Below are positions 1 to 53,005 of a DNA stretch of 64,000 nucleotides, piece by piece. Within the stretch, counting starts at the first letter, position 1. Each line of letters opens with the position of its first letter. The notes below the pieces were generated by a model, which saw only the letters and a list, made by a program, of their open reading frames with translations, ran no database searches and had not been told where the DNA came from. Source of the stretch: Arthrobacter sp. Hiyo4 (GTDB taxonomy: Bacteria > Actinomycetota > Actinomycetes > Actinomycetales > Micrococcaceae); NCBI GenBank assembly GCA_002370555.1, contig AP014718.1, positions 3,224,001-3,288,000 on the forward strand, in the 5' to 3' direction. A program made the translations under genes and the position numbers.

Positions 1-246
1 TCGGAACAGGCCGGACTGGGCGTGGCCGACGCGGCCGTCGCCGAGGCCCTGGCGGAAGGCAACCGGGCCTACGAGGAGAAGTTCGGGCAGGTGTTCCTGA
101 TCCGCGCCGCCGGCCGCAGCCGCGAGGAGATCCTGGCCGCCCTCAACACCAGGCTCGGCAACACCCCCGAAGCAGAACAAGCAATAATAGGCCAGCAGTT
201 GCGGGAAATCGCAGTGCTCCGACTCGAAGGACTGATCGGCAGATGA
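1..246 (+). CDS. uraD: OHCU decarboxylase, C-terminal part (5' end outside window)
   Basis: The open frame runs in from the window edge. The visible residues resemble the C-terminal half of 2-oxo-4-hydroxy-4-carboxy-5-ureidoimidazoline decarboxylase, with the family's FGQVFLIRAAGRS-like stretch (family usually FGFPFIICARG) and a terminal helical part that ends in RLEGLIGR. The enzyme decarboxylates OHCU to S-allantoin, the last step of urate oxidation. The stop codon overlaps the start of uraH by four bases (ATGA), so the two are translationally coupled. Usual length is about 165 residues, so roughly half is missing upstream. No frame problem is visible in this part. Confidence 0.9.
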   Translation, partial: SEQAGLGVADAAVAEALAEGNRAYEEKFGQVFLIRAAGRSREEILAALNTRLGNTPEAEQAIIGQQLREIAVLRLEGLIGR

Positions 247-584
247 GCACCTCCCACGTCACCACCCATGTACTGGACACGGGCTCCGGAAAACCGGCGG
301 CCGAGGTCCCGGTAACCCTCCACGTGCTCGACGGCGAGCGCTGGGTCCCGATCGCAGAGGGCGCCACCGACGCAGACGGACGCATCAAAGAGCTGGGGCC
401 GGAGCGGCTGCCGTCGGGGACCTACCGCCTGGCATTCGACACGGGCAAGTACTTCGCCGCCAGCGGCACCGAAACGTTCTTCCCGGAGGTGACCCTCACG
501 TTTGGCGTGGTGGAGCAGGAGCCGCACTACCACGTGCCGCTTCTGCTGAGCCCGTTCGCGTATTCCACGTACCGGGGCAGCTGA
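243..584 (+). CDS. uraH: 5-hydroxyisourate hydrolase (transthyretin-like)
   Basis: A 113-residue protein, the normal length for the family. It starts with the N-terminal signature S-HVTTHVLD-GKPA and ends with the diagnostic C-terminal YRGS. HIU hydrolase hydrolyses 5-hydroxyisourate to OHCU, directly before UraD, in the cytosol. Catalytic His (THVLD), Arg and the C-terminal Tyr-Arg-Gly-Ser are all visible. It overlaps uraD by four bases and is followed by a terminator-like hairpin, so it looks like the last gene of its operon. Uricase, its usual partner, is not adjacent in this window and lies at 21.1 kb. Confidence 0.96.
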   Translation: MSTSHVTTHVLDTGSGKPAAEVPVTLHVLDGERWVPIAEGATDADGRIKELGPERLPSGTYRLAFDTGKYFAASGTETFFPEVTLTFGVVEQEPHYHVPLLLSPFAYSTYRGS

Positions 585-617
585 GCCCACCGGCGCTACT
601 GCAACTGCGACAACAGG

Positions 618-646
618 AAGGGTCCGCGGCAATGCCGCGGACCCTT
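618..646 (+). terminator. Hairpin after uraH
   Basis: Perfect inverted repeat with 14-base arms (618-631 and 633-646, AAGGGTCCGCGGCA) separated by one base. There is only a short T-containing tail, so it is a strong hairpin but not a textbook rho-independent terminator. It closes the uraD-uraH operon. Confidence 0.75.
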
Positions 647-669
647 TCGCGCGCTCGGGATCCACACAC

Positions 670-688
670 CGGCCGCAGTCACAATCGG
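670..688 (+). promoter_or_regulatory. Shared intergenic motif CGGCCG-GTCACAATCGG, copy 1
   Basis: CGGCCGCAGTCACAATCGG. A near-identical 17-base string occurs at 11112-11128 and 20883-20899, each time in an intergenic stretch upstream of purine-related genes. It may be a regulator site. No family is assigned. Confidence 0.35.
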
Positions 689-725
689 TGATTTGGCCCG
701 CGTGGGCCATAACGGAACAAATTCC

Positions 726-754
726 TTGACAGTGGTACGGGTCACTTCTATTCT
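726..754 (+). promoter_or_regulatory. Promoter of the MFS/hydantoinase cluster
   Basis: A perfect -35 box TTGACA at 726-731, a 17-base spacer and a -10 box TATTCT at 749-754. The transcription start would fall near 761, inside the operator at 758-786. The leader to the GTG start at 932 is about 170 bases long. Confidence 0.8.
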
Positions 755-757
755 GAA

Positions 758-786
758 TTTTGGGATCCCAATTTGGGATCCCAAAA
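758..786 (+). promoter_or_regulatory. Double palindromic operator over the transcription start
   Basis: Two copies of the palindrome TTGGGATCCCAA lie 13 bases apart. Together they form a larger inverted repeat with 12-base arms TTTTGGGATCCC and GGGATCCCAAAA (758-769, 775-786) around AATTT. The position just downstream of the -10 box suits a repressor. The GntR/FCD protein encoded at 2349 is the obvious candidate to bind it. Confidence 0.75.
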
Positions 787-931
787 GATCGCGAACCGGA
801 TCCCAGGCCACAGTTCATGGCCCGGCTTCTCCGGATTTAGGCTCCAGGACGCCCCACCAGCGGCCTCCTGCCCCGCGAACACCCAAGCCTTTCTTCCCGC
901 CTGCAATCTCCCTCTCTGCAAAGGAGAAGTT

Positions 932-2280
932 GTGTCTCTTCAAAATACTGAAACCGCCGTACCGCTCCCCGATGACAAAACCGGCAAAACCGGCAAGGAC
1001 GGCGTGCAACGTCGCACCAACGTCCGCTGGAAAATGTTCCTGCTCCTGCTGGTCCTCGTCGCCGTCAATTACATCGACAGGGGCTCCATCTCGGTGGCCC
1101 TGCCCATCATCCAGAAGGAATTCAATCTCGCCCCCGAGCTCGTGGGCCTCCTGCTCTCCGCCTTCTTCTGGACCTACGCGCTGATGCAGGTCCCGGTAGG
1201 CCTCCTGATCGATAAGTTCGGTCCCCGCAAGGTCATGACGGCGTCGTGCGTCGGCTGGGGCGCCGCCACGGCCGCCTCGGGCCTGGCCGGCGGCTTCCTC
1301 AGCATGTTCATTGCCCGGCTGGGCATCGGCGTCACGGAAGCCGGCGTCATGCCGGCCGGAGGCAAGCTCAACGCGATCTGGATGCACAAGTCGGAGCGCG
1401 GACGCGGCGCCACCATCCTCGACGCCGGCGCGCCTCTTGGCGCCGGCCTGGGCGGCATCATCATTGCCGGCCTGATCGCCTCCACCGGCAGCTGGCGCCT
1501 CGCGTTCATCATCGCCGGCGCCGCCACCGTCCTGATGGGTCTGGCGGTCTGGTGGTACGTCCGCGACAATCCCCGCCTGCACCGCGGTGTCAACGACGCC
1601 GAGGCCGAATACATTGAAGCCTCCCACGCCGCCGAAGACGCTGCGGCCGAGCTCGACGGCAGCAAGGGCAAGCGCGCCCTTCTGCCGTACCTGAAATTCC
1701 GCTCCTTCTGGGCCATGTGCCTCGGCTGGCTGGGCTTCAACGGCGTCTTCTACGGACTGCTGACCTGGGGACCGCTCTACCTGGCCCAGGACAAGGGCTT
1801 CGACCTCAAGACCATCGGCTGGTCCACGTTCGTGATCTTCGGCGCCGGCTTTGTCGGCGAAATCCTGGGCGGTGCGATCGCCGACAAGTGGCAGTCCACC
1901 GGCGCCTCCGCCAACCGTGTGATGCGCACGCTCCTGGGCACCTCCAGTGTGGTGGTGATCGGCGGCCTGATCGGCGTCACCGTCGTGGCCGACCCCACCA
2001 CCGCAGTCGTCCTCCTGTCCGTGGTCATGTTCTTCCTCCGCTGGGTGGGCCTGTTCTGGAGCATCCCCTCCATCCTGGGCGGCCGGACCAACGCCGGCGT
2101 CCTGGGCGGGGCAATGAACTTCAGCGGCAACATCTCCGGCTTCGTGACCCCGATTGCGGTCGGCCTGATTGTCGGCGCCACCGGCTCCTACACCTGGGCG
2201 CTGCTGTACTTCGTGGGATCCGCGATCATCATGGGGTATCCGTCCTGACCCTGAACTACAACAAGCGGCTACCTGTCTAA
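932..2280 (+). CDS. MFS transporter, anion:cation symporter type (frameshift near 2236)
   Basis: About 450 residues with twelve predicted membrane segments. The first motif, NYIDRGSISVALP, followed by LLLSAFFWTYALMQVPVG and DKFGPRK, is typical of the ACS branch of MFS that imports organic anions such as galactonate or glucarate. The start is GTG at 932, preceded by AAGGAG at 921-926; an in-frame ATG further upstream has no such site. As read, the frame ends early at 2248 after IIMGYPS. Restoring one G in the run at 2233-2236 gives the expected tail ending NYNKRLPV, with a stop at 2280. It is the first gene behind the 758-786 operator and probably imports the substrate of the cluster. Confidence 0.85.
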
Positions 2281-2348
2281 GCTAGCCACACGCACCTGTT
2301 CCTGAAGCCGGGAACGCAACGCCAGACAAGAACCGAAAGTGGAGAAGC

Positions 2349-3032
2349 ATGCACAGCGCAGAAGAAACCCAGGACAAGGAACGCCCCCTTCGGGAGGCTG
2401 TCCGGGACACCCTCCGCAACAGGATCTTCGAAGGGCATTACGTTCCCGGCACCAGGCTGGTGGAACGCGACCTCGCCGCAGAATTCAACGTGTCACGGCT
2501 TCCCGTCCGCGAAGCGCTCCGCATGCTGCGCCAGGAAGGGCTCATCAGCGACAGGGGCGCCCGCGGAGCCGAGGTCAGCACCCTGAGTCCCAAAGACGTC
2601 GAGGACCTCTTCGATGTCAGGCAGTCCCTTGAGGTGCTTGCCTGCCGCCTGGCCGCCTCCCGCGCCACGCCCGAAGACCTCAGCGGCCTCAAAGGCTTGC
2701 TGGACGAAGCAGACCGCTGCCTGGCCAAGGGTGCCATCATGGAAGCCCACCGGGCCAACAGCGAATTCCACGATGCCATCACCCGGATCGCCGACAACGG
2801 CTTCCTCAAGTCCGCGCTGGAACCGCTCCAGGGCCGCATGCACTGGCTCTTCCGCCACGTCAGCGACCTTCCAGAGCTGATCGAAGAACACCTCGACCTC
2901 TACGCCGCCATCGCCAGCGGCGACCCGGAACGGGCAGCCGCCCAATCGGCGTCGCACATCGGCAAATACCGCGAACAGTTTCCGGAGGATTTCAGCCGGA
3001 CAGAACCCGCCCTTCATCGGAAGAACTTATGA
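2349..3032 (+). CDS. GntR-family regulator, FCD type
   Basis: A 227-residue repressor-type protein. An N-terminal winged helix (about residues 15-80: LREAVRDTLRNRIFEG, LVERDLAAEFNVSRLPVREALR) is followed by an FCD ligand domain (about 90-215) with the metal-site pattern D/N-x3-H (EFHDAI), then H after HVS and ASHIGKY near the end. The start ATG has GGAG four bases upstream. It overlaps the next gene (ATGA at 3029), so it belongs to the catabolic operon. It probably senses a substrate or intermediate of the hydantoinase pathway and binds the palindromes at 758-786. Confidence 0.9.
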   Translation: MHSAEETQDKERPLREAVRDTLRNRIFEGHYVPGTRLVERDLAAEFNVSRLPVREALRMLRQEGLISDRGARGAEVSTLSPKDVEDLFDVRQSLEVLACRLAASRATPEDLSGLKGLLDEADRCLAKGAIMEAHRANSEFHDAITRIADNGFLKSALEPLQGRMHWLFRHVSDLPELIEEHLDLYAAIASGDPERAAAQSASHIGKYREQFPEDFSRTEPALHRKNL

Positions 3033-3811
3033 AACTCCTTGTCATCAACCCCAACATCAGCGACGACGTTACCGCCCTGATCGAAGCGGAGGCCCTCCGC
3101 TCCGCCTCCTCCGGAACCGAACTTGTGGTCCGGACCGCCGGGTACGGCGTGGAATACATCGAAACCCGCTTTGAATCCCTGGTCGCGGCCGGAGCCGTCG
3201 CCGAAATCGTCGCCGAGTACACCCGCGACGGCGCCAGCATCGACGGCGTTGTGGTGGCCGCCTTCGGCGACCCCGGGATGCCGGCCCTGAAGGAACTCAC
3301 CGACATCCCCGTTATCGGAATCACCGAGGCGGCACTCTGCGCAGCGGCCCTGCAGGGGCACCGGTTCTCCATCATCGCCATCTCGGACCGGATCCGGCCC
3401 TGGTACCGGGACTGCGTGGAGCGCTTCGGGCTCGGCGGCCGGCTGGCATCGATCCGCTCCATCAACGAAGCCCTCCACGGCATCGCCTCGGTGCAGCAGG
3501 ACTTCGAGGCAACCCTGCTGGCACTCAGCCACCAGGCCGTCACGGAGGACGGGGCCGACGTCGTGATCCTCGCCGGAGCACCGCTCGCCGGCCTGGCCCG
3601 CGAACTCCGCGGGCAGATCGGCGTGCCCGTGGTGGACGGTATCTCCGCAGGCATCCGCATGGCAGAAGCGGTTGTTGGGCTCGATTCCGGACCGCACCGC
3701 GCCGGCGCCTTCGCACCGCCGCCGGCCAAGTCCCGCCGCGGCCTCACCGAGAACCTGGACGCCGCACTCAGCACCGCGCAGAACGCCTCCGCGCCCGCAC
3801 CGGCCAACTAG
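3029..3811 (+). CDS. Asp/Glu/hydantoin racemase-fold protein lacking both catalytic cysteines
   Basis: 260 residues, with the N-terminal signature LLVINPN of hydantoin and allantoin racemases. The family uses two cysteines, one in an ACFGDP-like motif and one in a GCAG-like motif. Here the first motif reads VVAAFGDPG, so Ala78 stands in for Cys, and the second reads ILAGAPLAGL, so Gly183 stands in for Cys. A two-base racemase mechanism therefore looks impossible, and the protein may be a lyase, decarboxylase or binding protein. The C-terminal 30 residues are Ala/Pro rich. It overlaps gntR by four bases and sits directly before the hydantoinase. The fold is certain; the reaction is unknown. 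Confidence 0.8.
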   Translation: MKLLVINPNISDDVTALIEAEALRSASSGTELVVRTAGYGVEYIETRFESLVAAGAVAEIVAEYTRDGASIDGVVVAAFGDPGMPALKELTDIPVIGITEAALCAAALQGHRFSIIAISDRIRPWYRDCVERFGLGGRLASIRSINEALHGIASVQQDFEATLLALSHQAVTEDGADVVILAGAPLAGLARELRGQIGVPVVDGISAGIRMAEAVVGLDSGPHRAGAFAPPPAKSRRGLTENLDAALSTAQNASAPAPAN

Positions 3812-3836
3812 CCACTCTCTATTTAGGAGGACACCG

Positions 3837-5271
3837 ATGTCCGACACCCCAGAACTCGTCATTGCCAACGGCACCGTGGTCAACAGCTTCGGCCGCCACC
3901 GGGCCCACGTTGTGGTCCGGGAGGGCCGCATCGACCAACTGGTGGACGCCGCCGAGCCTGTCCCCACCGCTACGCGCGTCATCGATGCCGCCGGCCTGCT
4001 GGTCATTCCCGGCGGCGTGGACGGACACTGCCACGTGGCCCAGATAACCGGGCGCTTCCGCACCCTCGATGACTACCGGACGACGTCGACGGCCGCCTTG
4101 TGGGGCGGCACCACCACCATCATCGACTTCGGCATCCCCGGGATGCCCGGGAAACCCCGCTGGACGCCGTGCTTTCCAAGAAGGCGCTGGCCCGGGAGTC
4201 CCGGTGTGACGTCGCGCTGCACGGCTCCGTGGTCAGCTGGGACGAAACGGTGCCCTGGCAGCTGGAGCAGCTCGCCGCCGAGGGCGTCCGGTCCGTCAAG
4301 ATGTACACCACCAACCGCGGCACCACCATGGCGGACGGGGACACCATCCTCAAGGTCATGCGCGAGATGGTCCGCCTGGACGGCCTCACCTACATCCATG
4401 CCGAGCACGACCCCATCATCTCGGACTGCACGCAGCAGCACGCGGACGATGGCCGGATCGGCGTCGAACACCTGCACCGCACCCGCCCCGAACTGGCCGA
4501 AGAGGTCTCGGTCAAGGAAACGCTGGCCATGGCCGAATACGCCGGCGCGCCTGTCTACTTTGTGCACCAGTCCACTCCCGGAGCCGTGGATCTGGTCACC
4601 GAGGCCCGCGGCCGCGGCCAGGAGGCCTACTCCGAGACCTGTCCCCACTACCTCACCCTCGACGACAGCGTCTACGGATCGGTAATGCCGGAGTGGTACG
4701 CCTGCTGCCCGCCCATGCGCAGCCCGCAGACCGTCGCCGCGCTCCGGGAACGGCTTGCCGACGGCGCCATCCACACCGTTGCCTCCGACCACTCCTGCTA
4801 CGACCTCACGCAAAAACGGGAGCGCCCGGACGACATCCGCGAAATGCCGCACGGACTCCCTGGCGTCGAAACCCGGATGCCCGTCACATTCACCGCCCTG
4901 ATGGAAGGAGCCCGCGACGCCCGGGTCGAGGACTTCGTCGAAGTCTTCGCCGCCGGCCCCGCCCGCATCAACGCCCTTCCCCGCAAGGGAACCATCGCCC
5001 CCGGGTTCGACGCCGACCTGGTCATCTTCGATCCGGTCGAGGAAAGAACCGTCGACGGCGACGCCCTGCACATGGGCACCGACTTCTCCCCGTTCGACGG
5101 CCGGACGCTCACGGGCTGGCCGGCCGTCGTCGTCTCCGCCGGACGCGTGGTGGTGGACAGCGACGGGTTCCACGACCCCGGTTCCGTGGGCCGCTTCGTG
5201 CCCGCCTCGGCTTCCGCGAGCATCTGGCCGCGACTTCCGTCCGTCCTGCCGCCACCCAGGCCACCCGCTAG
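3837..5271 (+). CDS. Dihydropyrimidinase / D-hydantoinase-type amidohydrolase (two frameshifts)
   Basis: About 478 residues once two single-base losses are restored, in the GGG run near 4150 and the CC run near 5212. The start is ATG 3837 with TTAGGAGG upstream. All metal-site elements of the cyclic amidohydrolase family are visible: the HxH in GGVDGHCHV, the carboxylated Lys in VRSVKMYTT, His in YIHAEHD, His in YFVHQST and Asp in VASDHSCYD. The enzyme hydrolyses a cyclic ureide or imide such as a hydantoin or dihydropyrimidine to the N-carbamoyl acid. No carbamoylase follows it, which is unusual for a hydantoin pathway. Allantoinase is encoded separately at 51.6 kb, so this enzyme probably has another substrate. 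Confidence 0.88.
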
Positions 5272-5279
5272 GAGCCCCC

Positions 5280-6011
5280 ATGCCTTCCACAACCCGCCCC
5301 AAGCGCATCGGCATGATCGTGCCGTCCTCCAACACCTGCCTCGAACCGCAAAGCTACCGGATCCTGGGCGACCGGGACGACGTCACTATCCACTTCGCCC
5401 GGATCCCGGTCATCCGGATTGCCCTGGACAAATCCTCGGACAAGCAGTTCGATGCCGCGGTGATGCGTTCGGCCGCCGAACTCCTCGCCACCGCCGATGT
5501 GGACGTCATCGCCTGGAACGGCACCTCCGGCTCCTGGCTCGGCGCCGACCATGACCGCCAGCTCGTGGAGGAAATCACGGATGCCACGGGCATCCCGGCC
5601 ACCACGTCCACCCTGGCGTACATGGAAGCGTTCCGGACCTTCGGCACCGAACGCATCGGGCTCTTCACTCCGTACACCGGGGACGTCAACGAACAGATCG
5701 TGGCGTCCTACCAACGGGACGGCATCAAGACCCTCAACCACCGCTTCCTTGGCCTGAGCGACAACGAGTCGTTCGCCCGGGTGACGGATGAGGAGATGCG
5801 TCCGGGGTCGCTGGAGCTTGCCGCGTCCAGGCCGGACGCCGTCATCTACCTCTGCACCAACCTCTACGGCGCCAACATCACCGCGGAAATTGAGGCCGAG
5901 ACTGACGTTCCCGTGCTGGACTCGGTGGCCGTAACGCTGTGGCATTGCCTCAGGATGGCTGGGGCACCGCTGCTGGACCCGCGCTGGGGCAGGCTCCTCA
6001 CGTCCGCCTGA
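5280..6011 (+). CDS. Maleate isomerase / arylmalonate decarboxylase-fold protein
   Basis: 243 residues of the Asp/Glu racemase superfamily with the N-terminal PSSNT motif of maleate cis-trans isomerases. Maleate isomerase has two catalytic cysteines. Arylmalonate decarboxylase keeps only the second and has Gly-Thr-Ser at the first site. Here the first site reads NGTSGS (Gly81-Thr82-Ser83) and the second reads LCTNLYG (Cys192); Tyr132 in TPYTGDVNE matches the decarboxylase's oxyanion-hole Tyr. The pattern thus favours decarboxylation or another one-cysteine reaction over isomerisation. It follows the hydantoinase by eight bases with AGGAG upstream, so the two probably act on consecutive intermediates. 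It is intact as read. Confidence 0.78.
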   Translation: MPSTTRPKRIGMIVPSSNTCLEPQSYRILGDRDDVTIHFARIPVIRIALDKSSDKQFDAAVMRSAAELLATADVDVIAWNGTSGSWLGADHDRQLVEEITDATGIPATTSTLAYMEAFRTFGTERIGLFTPYTGDVNEQIVASYQRDGIKTLNHRFLGLSDNESFARVTDEEMRPGSLELAASRPDAVIYLCTNLYGANITAEIEAETDVPVLDSVAVTLWHCLRMAGAPLLDPRWGRLLTSA

Positions 6012-6186: not shown

Positions 6187-6222
6187 TTGAGCCAACTATT
6201 CAACGATGAAAAGAGGCTGGAC

Positions 6223-8985
6223 GTGGCTGCAGGAGAAGATACCTCCCATATCCTCAGCGGGTTGACAAACCAGCTGCCTGATCGTGATCCGGAAGAGACC
6301 GCCGAATGGCTGGAGTCCCTGGATGCCCTGATTCAGGAACAGGGCACCGAGCGTGCCCAATACATCATGCGGAGCCTGCTGCAGCGCGCCGGCGCGCAGA
6401 GCGTCGGCGTGCCGATGGTGACCACCACGGACTACGTGAATACCATCCCGGTGGACCAGGAAGCTCCGTTCCCCGGCAACGAAGAGTTCGAGCGCCGGTA
6501 CCGGGCGTACATGCGCTGGAATGCCGCCATCATGGTGCACCGGGCACAGCGGCCGAACATCGGCGTGGGCGGGCACATCTCCACGTACGCCGGGGCCGCC
6601 ACCTTGTACGAGGTCGGCTTCAACCACTTCTTCCGCGGCAAGGACCACCCGGCGGCGGTGACCAGGTTTTCTTCCAGGGCCACGCCTCCCCCGGCATGTA
6701 CGCCCGCGCGTTCATGGAAGGCCGGCTCGCCGAGGAGGACCTGGACGGATTCCGGCAGGAAAAGTCCAAGGAAGGCCACGCGCTCTCCTCCTACCCGCAC
6801 CCGCGCCTCATGCCGGAGTTCTGGGAATTCCCCACGGTCTCGATGGGCATCGGCCCGATGAACGCGATCTACCAGGCCCAGTCCAACCGGTACCTGCACA
6901 ACCGCGGTCTCAAGGACACCTCGGACCAGCAGGTCTGGGCGTTCCTGGGCGACGGCGAAATGGACGAGCCCGAGTCCCGCGGCCTGCTCCAGCTCGCCGC
7001 GAACGAGAACCTCGACAACCTCAACTTCGTGGTCAACTGCAACCTCCAGCGCCTGGACGGCCCCGTCCGCGGCAACGGCAAGATCATGCAGGAACTCGAG
7101 GCGTTCTTCCGCGGCGCGGGCTGGAACGTCATCAAGGTCGTCTGGGGCCGGGAGTGGGATGACCTGCTCACCCAGGACTCCGACGGCTCGCTCGTGAAGA
7201 TCATGAACGAGACCCCGGACGGTGACTACCAGACCTACAAGGCAGAATCCGGCGGGTTCGTCCGCGAGCACTTCTTCGGCAAAACCCCGCAGACCAAGGA
7301 CATGGTCGCGGACCTCTCCGATGACGGGATCTGGAACCTCAAGCGCGGCGGCCACGACTACCGCAAGGTCTACGCCGCGTACAAGGCTGCCACCGAATTC
7401 AAGGGCAAACCCACCGTCATCCTGGCCAAAACGGTCAAGGGCTACGGCCTCGGACCCCACTTCGAGGGCCGCAACGCGACCCACCAGATGAAAAAGCTCA
7501 CCCTCGATGACCTGAAGAAGTTCCGCGACCACCTGCGCATCCCCATCACGGACGAACAGCTCGACGCGGACCTCTACCGCCCCCGTACTACCACCCCGGC
7601 ATGGACTCCCCCGAGATCCAGTACCTGATGGAACGCCGCCGCGCCCTGGGCGGTTTCGTCCCCGAACGCCGGCCGGACCACACGCCAGTGGAGCTGCCGG
7701 AGGTCAAGACCTACGAGGTAGCCAAGCGCGGTTCCGGGAAGCAGCAGGCGGCCACCACCATGACCTTCGTGCGCCTGCTCAAGGACCTGCTCCGGGATAA
7801 GAATTTCGGACACCGCATTGTCCCCATCGTTCCGGATGAGGCCCGCACGTTCGGAATGGACGCGTTCTTCCCCACGGCGAAGATCTACAACCCCAAGGGC
7901 CAGAACTACCTGTCCGTGGACCGGGACCTGGTCCTGGCCTACAAGGAATCGGCCCAGGGCCAGCTGATCCACCCCGGCATCAACGAAGCTGGCGCGGTCG
8001 CGGCGTTCACCGCCGCCGGCACCGCCTACGCCACCCACGGCGTACCGCTGATCCCGGTGTACGTGTTCTACTCCATGTTCGGGTTCCAGCGCACCGGCGA
8101 CGCCTTCTGGGCCGCCGGGACCAGATGGCCCGCGGGTTCATCATCGGCGCCACCGCCGGGCGGACCACCCTGACCGGCGAAGGCCTCCAGCACGCCGACG
8201 GCCACTCCCCGCTGCTGGCCTCCACGAACCCGGCAGTGGTCACCTATGACCCGGCGTACGGGTACGAAATGGGCCACATCATCCGGGACGGCATCGAGCG
8301 CATGTACGGGCCGGCCGCAAGCGGCGATGGAACCGGACCTGCATCCGATAAGAACCTGATGTACTACATCACGGTCTACAACGAGCCGATCTCCCAGCCG
8401 GCCGAACCTGAGAACCTCGACGTCACCGGTGTACTGAAGGGCATTTACCGGGTGTCGGCGTCGGGGCTTGAAGGGCCCAAGAGCCAGATCCTGGCCTCGG
8501 GAGTCTCGGTTCCCTGGGCCTTGGATGCCCAGCGGATCCTCGCCGAGGACTGGGGCGTCTCCGCCGACGTCTGGTCCGTCACGTCCTGGAACGAACTGCG
8601 CCGCGACGGGCTCGCCGCCGAGGAAGAGGCGTTCCTGAACCCGGGCCAGCCGGCCCGCCTACCGTTTGTCACTCAGCAGCTCGCCGATGCGCAGGGGCCC
8701 GTGGTGGCGGTGACCGACTACATGAAGGCCGTCCCGGACCAGATCCGCCAGTTCCTCCCGCACCAGTTCGCTTCGCTCGGAGCCGACGGCTTCGGCTTCT
8801 CCGACACCCGGGCCGCAGCCCGCCGCTTCTTCAAGAACGACACCCACTCGATTGTGGTGAAGACCCTGCAGCTGCTCGCTTCGCGCGGTGAGGTGGACGG
8901 CGGCGTGCCCTCCTACGCGCTGGACCGCTACAAGCTGCTGGACGTCAACGCCGGGACCACCGGAGGCACCGGAGGCGACTCCTGA
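6223..8985 (+). CDS. aceE: Pyruvate dehydrogenase E1 component, homodimeric (three frameshifts)
   Basis: About 920 residues when three lost bases are restored: G near 6650, C near 7581 and G near 8118. It decarboxylates pyruvate with thiamine diphosphate and passes the acetyl group to E2. The thiamine diphosphate motif [10 protein letters not shown]...[12 protein letters not shown] is clear, as are [25 protein letters not shown] and the C-terminal SWNELRRDG block. The start is uncertain: GTG 6223 has AAGAGG six bases upstream and gives the [13 protein letters not shown] start expected for Arthrobacter, whereas a TTG at 6187 is also in frame. Loss of an essential central enzyme by three independent mutations is implausible, so this gene is a good argument for consensus errors. 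A strong terminator follows. Confidence 0.95.
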
Positions 8986-51416: not shown

Positions 51417-51653
51417 GCTGCGGCACGCGCCGGAATCCCCGTGCTGGCCGTCTGCGGCCGCAGTACGCTGAGCCCGGAACAGCTTAGGGAAGCCGGGTTC
51501 AAGGCCGTTCACGCCCTGACCGATTTTGAGTCCAATGTAGAGAAATGTATGGCCGAAGCAGGCCCGCTGCTTGAAGAATTAGGTAAGCACATCGGCGTGC
51601 ACCTGCCTGCGAGTGCAGCGCGTACCGACACCAAGGAGAACGTCCATGTCTGA
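51417..51653 (+). pseudogene. 3' fragment of a second glycerate kinase
   Basis: About 78 residues in one frame from CAAARAGIPVLAVCGRSTLSPEQ to DTKENVHV, with TGA at 51651-51653. It matches the C-terminal 70 residues of the glycerate kinase at 42952 (GVPVIAVCGRNTLSPDQ; YALTELESN against HALTDFESN; CMAEA) but with only about 70 percent nucleotide similarity by eye, so it is not a recent copy. The catalytic part is missing. Its stop overlaps the allantoinase start by eight bases, showing that a glycerate kinase gene once preceded allB in an operon. Confidence 0.8.
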
Positions 51654-53005
51654 AGAAACCACCCCGGCGGCCGGCGCGTTTGACCTGGTCATCCGCGGCC
51701 AGCGCATCCTCACCACTGCCGGCATCACCGCCCGCGAAGTGGGCATCCGCGGCGGCGTGATCATCGCCATCGAGCCGTTCGGCAACGGCCTCACCGGCAC
51801 GCAGGTCATTGACCTGGCCGACGACGAAACCCTCATCCCCGGCCTCGTGGACACGCACGTCCACGTCAACGAGCCCGGCCGCACCGAGTGGGAGGGCTTC
51901 GCGTCCGCCACCCGCGCAGCGGCCGCCGGCGGTGTCACCACCATCATCGACATGCCGCTGAACTCCATCCCGCCCACCACCACAGTGGAGAACCTCAAGC
52001 TCAAGCGCGAGGTCGCCGAGGACCAGGCATTTGTGGACGTCGGATTCTGGGGCGGCGCCGTGCCGGGCAACAAGAAGGACCTTCGCGGCCTGCATGACGA
52101 GGGCGTCTTCGGGTTCAAGTGCTTCCTGCTGCACTCCGGCGTGGACGAGTTCCCGCACCTCGAAGCGGACGAGATGGAGGAGGACATGGCAGAGCTCAAG
52201 TCCTTCGACTCGCTCATGCTCGTCCACGCCGAGGACTCCCACGCAATCGACCGCGCCCCGCACCCCGGCGGCGACCACTACGAAACGTTCCTGGCCTCCC
52301 GCCCCCGCGGCGCCGAGAACAAGGCCATCGCCGAGGTCATCGAGCGGGCCCGCTGGACCGGCGCCCGCGCCCACATCCTGCACCTCTCGTCCTCCGATGC
52401 GCTGCCCATGATCGCGAGCGCAAAGCGCGACGGCGTCCACCTCACCGTGGAGACGTGCCCGCACTACCTCACCCTGATGGCCGAGGAAATCCCGACGGCG
52501 CCACCGCGTACAAGTGCTGCCCGCCGATCCGTGAGGCCTCCAACCGCGAGCTGCTCTGGAAGGGCCTGCAGGACGGCACCATCGACTGCATCGTCTCGGA
52601 CCACTCCCCGTCCACCCTGGACCTGAAGGACCTGGAAAACGGCGACTTCGCCGTGGCCTGGGGCGGCGTCTCCTCGCTGCAGCTGGGGCTGTCCCTGATC
52701 TGGACCGAGGCCGGCATCGCGGCATCGCGCTGGAACAGGTGGTGTCCTGGATGGCGGAGAAGCCCGCCGCCCTGGCCCGCCTGCACAACAAGGGCCAGCT
52801 GGCCCTCGGCTACGACGCGGACTTCTCCATCTTCGCGCCGGACGACGCGTTCGTGGTCGACGTCACCAAGCTCAAGCACAAGAACCCCATCACGCCCTAC
52901 GACGGCAAGGCGCTCTCCGGCGTCGTCCGCAAAACGTTCCTTCGCGGCAACGAGATCGACGGCCGCACGCCCAGCGGCAAGCTGATCCGCCGCGGCGGCG
53001 TCTGA
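51646..53005 (+). CDS. allB: Allantoinase (two frameshifts)
   Basis: About 453 residues after restoring bases near 52496 and 52718. Metal ligands: [20 protein letters not shown], carboxylated Lys in [37 protein letters not shown] and [19 protein letters not shown] is specific to allantoinase among cyclic amidohydrolases. It hydrolyses allantoin to allantoate. AAGGAGAA precedes ATG 51646. Followed by the winged-helix gene at 12 bases. Confidence 0.95.

Follow-up and report, generated by a model that had tools for sequence, protein, structure and literature searches.

An operator-associated hydantoinase gene cluster of Arthrobacter with two racemase-fold proteins that lack the catalytic cysteine pair

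Organization of the cluster and its control region

We have analysed a 64,000-nucleotide stretch of DNA from Arthrobacter sp. Hiyo4 (contig AP014718.1, positions 3,224,001 to 3,288,000; hereafter the window), part of a 3.78 Mb single-contig genome that is 92% complete and 5% contaminated, and describe here a cluster of 5 genes near its start. Open reading frames (ORFs) and family profiles placed these genes where the original prediction, made from the sequence without database searches, had put them. All are on the forward strand: an MFS transporter gene with a GTG start at 932 (932-2280; it matches Pfam MFS_1, with TIGR00893 as best NCBIfam model, below its cut-off); a GntR-FCD regulator gene (2349-3032; PF00392 and PF07729); the gene for R1 (3029-3811), a protein of the Asp/Glu/hydantoin-racemase family that has Ala78 and Gly183 and neither catalytic Cys; the gene for HYD (3837-5271), a hydantoinase/dihydropyrimidinase-type amidohydrolase of a distinct subfamily; and the gene for R2 (5280-6011), a PF17645 protein with Gly81-Thr82-Ser83 and Cys192, and with maleate-isomerase-like Asn18, Tyr132 and Asn162.

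The promoter and double palindrome that had been predicted ahead of the cluster were both borne out. A sigma-70-type promoter, TTGACA-17-TATTCT, lies at 726-754 on the forward strand and agrees with the consensus at 10 of 12 positions; one such promoter was observed in the segment 580-1000, as against 0.1 expected from shuffles. It is followed at 758-786 by 2 copies of the palindrome TTGGGATCCCAA, at positions 760 and 773 and thus 13 bp apart, where base composition would lead one to expect about 0.002 per 64 kb. This double operator is the presumed GntR site, and we infer that the GntR protein binds the pair.

The TTGGGATCCCAA 12-mer was present at 60 of 73 loci of relatives, duplicate records included (loci and genomes are designated below by L and G numbers). 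Among the 13 loci without it, the 5-gene loci L107, L112, L115 and L137 carry copies with 1-2 mismatches near the MFS start, and the remainder are contig ends or loci without R1 and R2. A search of 36 genomes for the 13-base pattern TTTGGGATCCCAA found it in 18, which are exactly the 18 cluster carriers; all sites sit at the cluster and none occurs in the other 18 genomes, compared with 4 of the 36 for the reversed control pattern. The idea of a wider regulon was dropped after this search, which revealed no distant sites and added to the set only an MHS-type transporter and an amidase within the cluster. At L063, L074 and L142, MFS and GntR are separated by this MHS-type transporter gene and an amidase-signature gene, ahead of which the same operator also stands; in Glutamicibacter (L111, the same as L138) such a pair adjoins R2. 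Operator and synteny together back the original prediction that the cluster is a single regulated unit.

It should be noted that 2 of the genes are interrupted in the window, a point that the original prediction missed. HYD is not one open frame, being broken near 4135, by comparison with L061, and near 5205, as judged by eye from the ORFs against the L061 protein; the MFS frame is broken near 2236 relative to L061. Each of the 2 genes is a single open frame in L061, and in the other same-genus relatives both were matched without frame change. Just downstream of the cluster aceE (6187-8985) lies in 4 pieces in 3 frames, and an allantoinase homologue at about 51628-53002 lies in 3 pieces, from which we conclude that the assembly is rich in indels. 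Since the relatives are intact and aceE is equally broken, sequencing error is a likelier cause of the interruptions than decay, and pseudogene decay of the operon was rejected because of the state of aceE.

Conservation of the 5-gene set

A genome-neighbourhood search showed that the set is conserved across relatives. Protein searches covered 59 genomes, 37 of them from the same genus, the genome of the window included. In 26 of these 37, R1 and R2 were both present, each at an identity of at least 79%; the 5 genes could be mapped in all 25 relatives that have R1 and R2, with the set split over 2 contigs in one genome and with 2 genes inserted after MFS at L063 and L074. The closest copies include that of Arthrobacter sp. 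SO3 (L061, of which L122 is a duplicate record).

In a sample of the family, HYD had matches at E 1e-60 in 60 of 295 genomes, and an orthologue group at 51% identity or more was separated from other hydantoinases at 36% or less; among the matches listed for family, order and named genomes, the corresponding values were at least 47% and at most 37%. The arrangement R1-HYD-R2 was present at 17 of 20 chosen family loci, the 3 others being a contig end, L104 (GntR-HYD-NCS1) and L113, where a 51% HYD occurs without R1 and R2. At E 1e-80 matches were found in 16 of 396 genomes order-wide and in 2 of 396 phylum-wide, own genome included. Seven order-level loci from outside the family were retrieved: all 5 genes are present at L115, and the other 6 have HYD without R1 and R2 (one of these, L118, is a short contig of little weight). 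Among the matches listed for named genomes, 22 of the 26 mapped loci have the 5 genes, including loci of Nocardia albiluteola, N. terrae, Glutamicibacter sp. PS and a Microbacterium metagenome-assembled genome; 10 of the 26 duplicate other records, and 54 further matches, at 37% identity or less, were left unmapped. The cluster is a genuine conserved operon.

Two loci deserve separate mention. At L104 (G155, 1-3490) the GntR-HYD-NCS1 arrangement lies at a contig start, and the same genome has a full 5-gene copy (L105). At L028 (G033:C11:1281454-1281612) a 53-residue match to R2, 75% identical, has no other cluster gene around it (L088), and is apparently the remnant of a lost copy.

Catalytic-site residues of HYD, R1 and R2

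In HYD, the residues His64, His66, Lys155, His188, His244 and Asp318, which we take to be the binuclear metal-site set, were invariant in 10 of 10 sequences. The intact HYD of L061 scored 351 bits with the D-hydantoinase model TIGR02033 (cut-off 393.25) and 251 bits with the allantoinase model TIGR03178 (cut-off 357.85), and HYD falls below all NCBIfam cut-offs shown. The separate allantoinase homologue of the window is, over its 3 pieces, 77-94% identical to an allantoinase-like gene beside AllR in G030. The cluster had been said to go without a carbamoylase; this is true of the cluster itself, but elsewhere in the genome there is one above-cut-off match to TIGR01879 (hydantoinase/carbamoylase family), with a second piece beside it, a further split that the indel-rich assembly would explain. 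An amidase-signature protein, which some relatives encode within the cluster or next to it, may supply the missing N-carbamoyl step. The window genome gave no match to this amidase at E 1e-60, and the nearest match there to an FAH-type (fumarylacetoacetate-hydrolase) gene, another neighbour in relatives, is 38% identical; neither having a close match, the 2 genes were set aside as core members and regarded as accessory.

R1 was predicted to carry Ala78 and Gly183 where a racemase has its 2 catalytic Cys residues, and alignments with solved hydantoin and allantoin racemases, arylmalonate decarboxylase (AMDase) and maleate isomerase placed both residues at the catalytic sites. The 2 sites are Cys-free in 56 of 56 distinct orthologues (best match per locus, above 55% identity, distinct sequences, as for all such counts here), and the site motifs AAFGDPG and LAGA are invariant among them, so that R1 is, as foreseen, not a Cys/Cys racemase. 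Its family membership is clear (PF01177, 150.7 bits), as is its homology to allantoin and hydantoin racemases (E 5e-36). A structure model of R1 made without an alignment was poor (predicted local distance difference test, pLDDT, 51) and was left unused.

The homology raises the possibility that R1, R2 or both epimerize a hydantoin or its product, as occurs in hydantoin-racemase/hydantoinase operons. In keeping with this, Gly at the first site is not peculiar to R2 and AMDase: the Pseudomonas fluorescens allantoin racemase PfAllR (PDB 5lfd) combines a first-site Gly with a second-site Cys, so a Gly/Cys pair alone does not exclude racemase chemistry. The same pairing is seen in AllR-like proteins of relatives, at L236 (14317-15201 in G030; the same gene in L091) and L094 (G036). 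Yet R1 lacks the second Cys that PfAllR keeps, and has Ala-Ile in place of Thr118/Thr119 of KpAllR, residues which bind substrate according to PMC12661438. Also, 21 of the 26 R1-bearing genomes have a second R1 homologue of 34-37% identity; the one in G030 (L236) is AllR-like and adjoins an allantoinase homologue, and the same protein search found none in the window genome. On balance we consider epimerization unlikely.

The ratio of nonsynonymous to synonymous substitution rates (dN/dS), for the window against 5 relatives, was about 0.13-0.21 for R1 and 0.12-0.17 for R2; being well below 1, these values indicate that both genes are apparently under purifying selection. They bear on the suggestion that the 2 proteins are vestigial, or serve as non-catalytic regulators or scaffolds, in a copy that is decaying in the window. 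The interrupted MFS and HYD frames and the loss of catalytic Cys from R1 could be read in this way; however, HYD and MFS are intact in L061 and show no frame change in other same-genus relatives, the site motifs are invariant, the ratios are low, and aceE is equally broken in the same assembly. We regard this explanation as very unlikely.

For R2, the predicted Gly81-Thr-Ser and Cys192 were confirmed, with alignments to solved relatives placing Gly81 and Cys192 at the catalytic sites, and the motifs WNGT and LCTN were invariant in 57 of 57 distinct orthologues. The further claim, that this is the arrangement of AMDase, stood for the Gly/Cys pair and the dioxyanion residues and not for the pocket of the leaving carboxylate, P15, G189 or the NCBIfam score. 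We compared R2 with 12 AMDase criteria from Table 4 of PMC4996985. G74/C188 of AMDase are matched by G81/C192, and T75, S76 and Y126 of the dioxyanion hole by T82, S83 and Y132 (S83 is Ala in a few orthologues). In contrast, G189 is replaced by T193; the pair P14 P15 reads P15 followed by S16, judged by eye against the published pattern; the motifs LMGTSLSF and ILLSCGGL do not occur as written; and in the leaving-group pocket V156 and M159 are replaced by N162 and F165, the latter still hydrophobic. L40 and V43 fall outside the phmmer alignment with R2, which starts at residue 44, and Y48 is in a poorly conserved stretch.

These comparisons bear on the original version of the pathway, in which R2 would be a genuine malonate decarboxylase of the AMDase kind, with a ring-opened cyclic ureide or imide as its substrate. 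Besides the matching residues, R2 passes the Pfam Amdase model PF17645 (105.6 bits against a cut-off of 25.9) and its fold is near that of AMDase; but its scores of 93 and 87 bits with the NCBIfam AMDase model NF052327 are far from the cut-off of 225, and the substitutions at N162, F165, S16 and T193 also speak against it. According to PMC12576825, the carboxylate that leaves is housed by AMDase in a hydrophobic pocket, and simulations of an engineered mutant indicated that stabilizing both carboxylates likely entails a very high barrier. PMC4996985 considers it highly unlikely that proteins lacking the hydrophobic pocket act on arylmalonates. We therefore give this version a minor, though appreciable, likelihood.

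The resemblance of R2 to maleate isomerase is at least as close. C192, N18, Y132 and N162 of R2 align with the second Cys and the Asn/Tyr/Asn residues of maleate isomerase 4fq7, residues that presumably bind the dicarboxylate; Asn162 is as in maleate isomerase, and the motifs PSSN and PY are also common to both, but Gly81 stands in place of the nucleophilic first Cys. A structure model of R2, built from 18 aligned sequences (pLDDT 87.9), matched maleate isomerase with Z 30.5, root-mean-square deviation 1.9 and 235 residues aligned, and AMDase with Z 29.2, deviation 2.0 and 230 aligned; 2 structures of unknown function came next, and the named racemases gave Z of 17.0 or less. The 2 leading scores being about level, the fold does not choose between AMDase and maleate isomerase, and the predicted structure and pocket residues together put R2 at least as near the latter as the former. 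Identity with the ectoine protein EutA was rejected (TIGR02990, 114 and 107 bits against a cut-off of 318). The defining features having been tested and not found, we file R2 as neither AMDase nor maleate isomerase, and R1 as no Cys/Cys racemase. It is a separate claim that the 2 proteins would work by chemistry related to that of AMDase, maleate isomerase and the racemases.

A polar, dicarboxylate-type pocket with one thiol would also suit a C-N or C-O lyase, in which Cys192 would take the alpha proton of the ring-opened di-acid, the Thr82/Ser83/Tyr132 hole would hold the enediolate, and urea, ammonia or water would leave. Ureide pathways commonly finish with ureidoglycolate-type chemistry. 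No such named lyase appeared among the sequence or structure matches of R2, however, and the proposal is speculative; we give it about the same limited likelihood as the AMDase-like decarboxylase.

A second type of cluster was seen at L087, L089 and L090 (G016, G022 and G012), where an R2-like protein has GTSGSW at the first site and Gly at the second, and so no catalytic Cys. Its neighbours are 2 PuuE-like proteins, a biuret/ureidoacrylate-amidohydrolase-like protein, metallo-beta-lactamase-fold proteins, a cupin and an amidase (profiles were scanned for the genes of L090, the other names being given by eye).

Genome context, proposed pathway and relation to known systems

We screened the flanks of 69 cluster loci (59 when 10 duplicate records are left out), within about 5.5 kb, for matches to 13 reference proteins, with 40 regions of 16 kb placed by choice in 15 of the genomes as controls. 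Genes for UraD, hydroxyisourate (HIU) hydrolase, ureidoglycine aminohydrolase, NCS1 or NCS2 occurred at 9 of the 69 loci (7 of the 59; L061, L081, L085, L104, L107, L122, L123, L130 and L137) and in the window itself, and in none of the 40 controls. One copy of the operon (L107/L239) closes a urate-degradation island whose other genes, each above its curated cut-off, encode urate oxidase, HIU hydrolase, UraD, xanthine permease, malate synthase and ureidoglycine aminohydrolase. In the window, the 3' end of uraD (OHCU decarboxylase, 1-243) and the hydroxyisourate hydrolase gene uraH (243-584), together occupying 1-584 on the forward strand, adjoin the cluster and lie outside the conserved 5-gene set; uraD-uraH adjoin it also at L061, L081 and L130. 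A xanthine permease gene adjoins the cluster at L137, and at L104 HYD overlaps an NCS1 gene for which allantoin permease is the best-scoring equivalog, below its cut-off; the NCS1 gene at L085, still counted among the 9, is on the strand opposite to R2 and outside the operon. An FAH-type gene was found beside 7 of the 69 loci (5 of the 59: L061, L097, L101, L109 and L135) and at 1 of the 40 controls. A molybdenum-cofactor-type nucleotidyltransferase beside L096 and L106 was far under its cut-off and was left uncounted. This context suggests purine-ureide catabolism, and together with the retained metal residues of HYD it makes the predicted opening of a cyclic ureide by the cluster likely.

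Two of the loci with HYD and without R1 and R2 have neighbours of their own: L116 has an NCS1-type permease and an SDR, and L113 has nucleoside hydrolases, of which the scanned one is nearest to pyrimidine-type enzymes, below cut-off. The L113 island (G322, about 1-11 kb) contains 2 nucleoside-hydrolase-like genes, a sugar-type ABC transporter, an SDR, and PuuE-like and hydroxyacid-dehydrogenase-like genes; it is possibly a modified-nucleoside ureide pathway. In the window, the segment 6012-6085 between R2 and aceE was seen by eye to contain a long imperfect inverted repeat (AAGCAACGCGGGGTC ... GACCCCGCGTTGCTT), which may be a terminator or a mobile repeat.

We propose that the cluster is an operon, inducible by its substrate, for the catabolism of a cyclic ureide of purine-degradation type taken up from outside, a reading to which we assign an even balance of probability. 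The MFS protein would import the compound, probably as an anion; the GntR-FCD protein would repress from the operator pair until a pathway intermediate binds it; and HYD would open the ring to give an N-carbamoyl acid. As a class, these steps of import, repression and ring opening are probable. R2 would then bind the ring-opened di-acid, one carboxylate held by Thr82/Ser83/Tyr132 and the second near Asn18/Asn162, and perform a one-cysteine enediolate chemistry with Cys192 as sole thiol acid/base, leading to decarboxylation or elimination rather than racemization; this step is tentative, with the balance somewhat against it. More doubtful is a final step in which R1, on the same scaffold, would act independently of cysteine as lyase, tautomerase or binding protein. 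In some relatives an amidase-signature or FAH-type protein may take over downstream. The original interpretation thus survives as to the regulated unit, the absence of a Cys/Cys racemase in R1 and the likely opening of a ureide; the AMDase arrangement then claimed for R2 extends to some only of the residues that define AMDase, and decarboxylation by R2 is possible.

Several observations weigh against the proposed operon function. No marker lies within about 5.5 kb of 60 of the 69 loci, and the references for urate oxidase, PuuE, allantoinase and AllR had no flank match at any of the 69. Some flanks had already been inspected when the list of markers was compiled, the contexts are not all independent, and the control sites were chosen, so that context counts as moderate evidence only. 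The trio is not obligate, since HYD occurs without R1 and R2 at L104, L113, L116, L117, L119-L121, L143, L144 and L146. The leaving-group pocket of R2 is changed, and its polar character counts against a simple AMDase-style decarboxylation because that of AMDase is hydrophobic; R1 could be non-catalytic; and HYD is frame-broken in the genome as deposited.

Our boldest candidate, which rests on chemistry and not on data, is an undescribed branch of purine or oxidized-nucleobase breakdown, in which a carboxylated hydantoin would pass through a ureido-malonate to the 2 cysteine-depleted racemase-fold enzymes. With alloxanate (5-hydroxyhydantoin-5-carboxylate) as the candidate compound, HYD would yield 2-hydroxy-2-ureidomalonate, R2 would decarboxylate this to ureidoglycolate, from which R1 or an accessory lyase would release glyoxylate and urea. 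We think this route quite unlikely to be correct; if it were, a natural function would have been found for an AMDase-type protein. The natural substrate of AMDase was described in 2016 as still to be identified (PMC4996985). No paper in the open-licence PubMed Central (PMC) literature was found to name both AMDase and a hydantoinase, though the operon may have been published outside that literature; in the same literature none was found on 5-hydroxyhydantoin with hydantoinase or on an Arthrobacter hydantoinase with a urate gene cluster, no listed title concerned the 5-gene set, and none of the papers listed as naming alloxanic acid or alloxanate was evidently on bacterial catabolism.

Racemase-fold proteins without the catalytic Cys pair are easily annotated as racemase or maleate isomerase and so overlooked. 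Here 2 of them co-occur, in several actinobacterial genera, with a single hydantoinase subfamily, a single transporter and a single operator. The operator and the strains with intact genes make the inducer directly findable, the purine-ureide neighbours of some copies provide a short list of candidate compounds, and the inducer would show the natural work of AMDase-related, cofactor-free enediolate enzymes.

Among known systems, AMDase (EC 4.1.1.76) resembles R2 in fold and Pfam family, in combining Gly at the first site with a single Cys at the second, and in the Thr-Ser and Tyr of the dioxyanion hole, whereas R2 differs in its polar pocket (Asn162, Phe165), Ser16, Thr193 and a score under the NCBIfam cut-off. 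AMDase genes are accompanied by mandelate-racemase-like and tripartite transporter genes, according to PMC4996985; such genes were not recognized in the flanks viewed, where no systematic test was made. Maleate cis-trans isomerase (EC 5.2.1.1), the best structural match of R2, has in common with it three motifs (PSSN, PY and SDN) as well as the second Cys, but R2 has Gly81 for the nucleophilic Cys, followed by Thr-Ser instead of Leu-Val. R1 belongs to the family of the allantoin and hydantoin racemases (AllR, HyuA) and has the FGDPG motif in common with KpAllR; it lacks both Cys residues and the KpAllR Thr pair, and is distinguished by the conserved motifs YIETR and WY. HYD shares its fold family and metal-site residues with dihydropyrimidinase/D-hydantoinase and allantoinase, and has loops after HCH and after the Lys that are presumably unlike those of textbook hydantoinases. 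The oxidative pyrimidine (barbiturate) pathway, which includes a ureidomalonase, resembles the cluster in ring opening and in the amidase-signature protein of some relatives; neither uracil oxidase nor barbiturase was recognized by eye in the flanks viewed, and this pathway was set aside for want of recognizable partner genes. Hydantoin-utilization operons of Arthrobacter comprise hyuP-hyuA-hyuH-hyuC. Like them, the cluster combines a transporter, a racemase-family protein and a hydantoinase; we nevertheless reject its assignment as an ordinary hyu operon, for it has no carbamoylase gene, its racemase-family protein has neither catalytic Cys, and it possesses an additional protein of the Amdase family.

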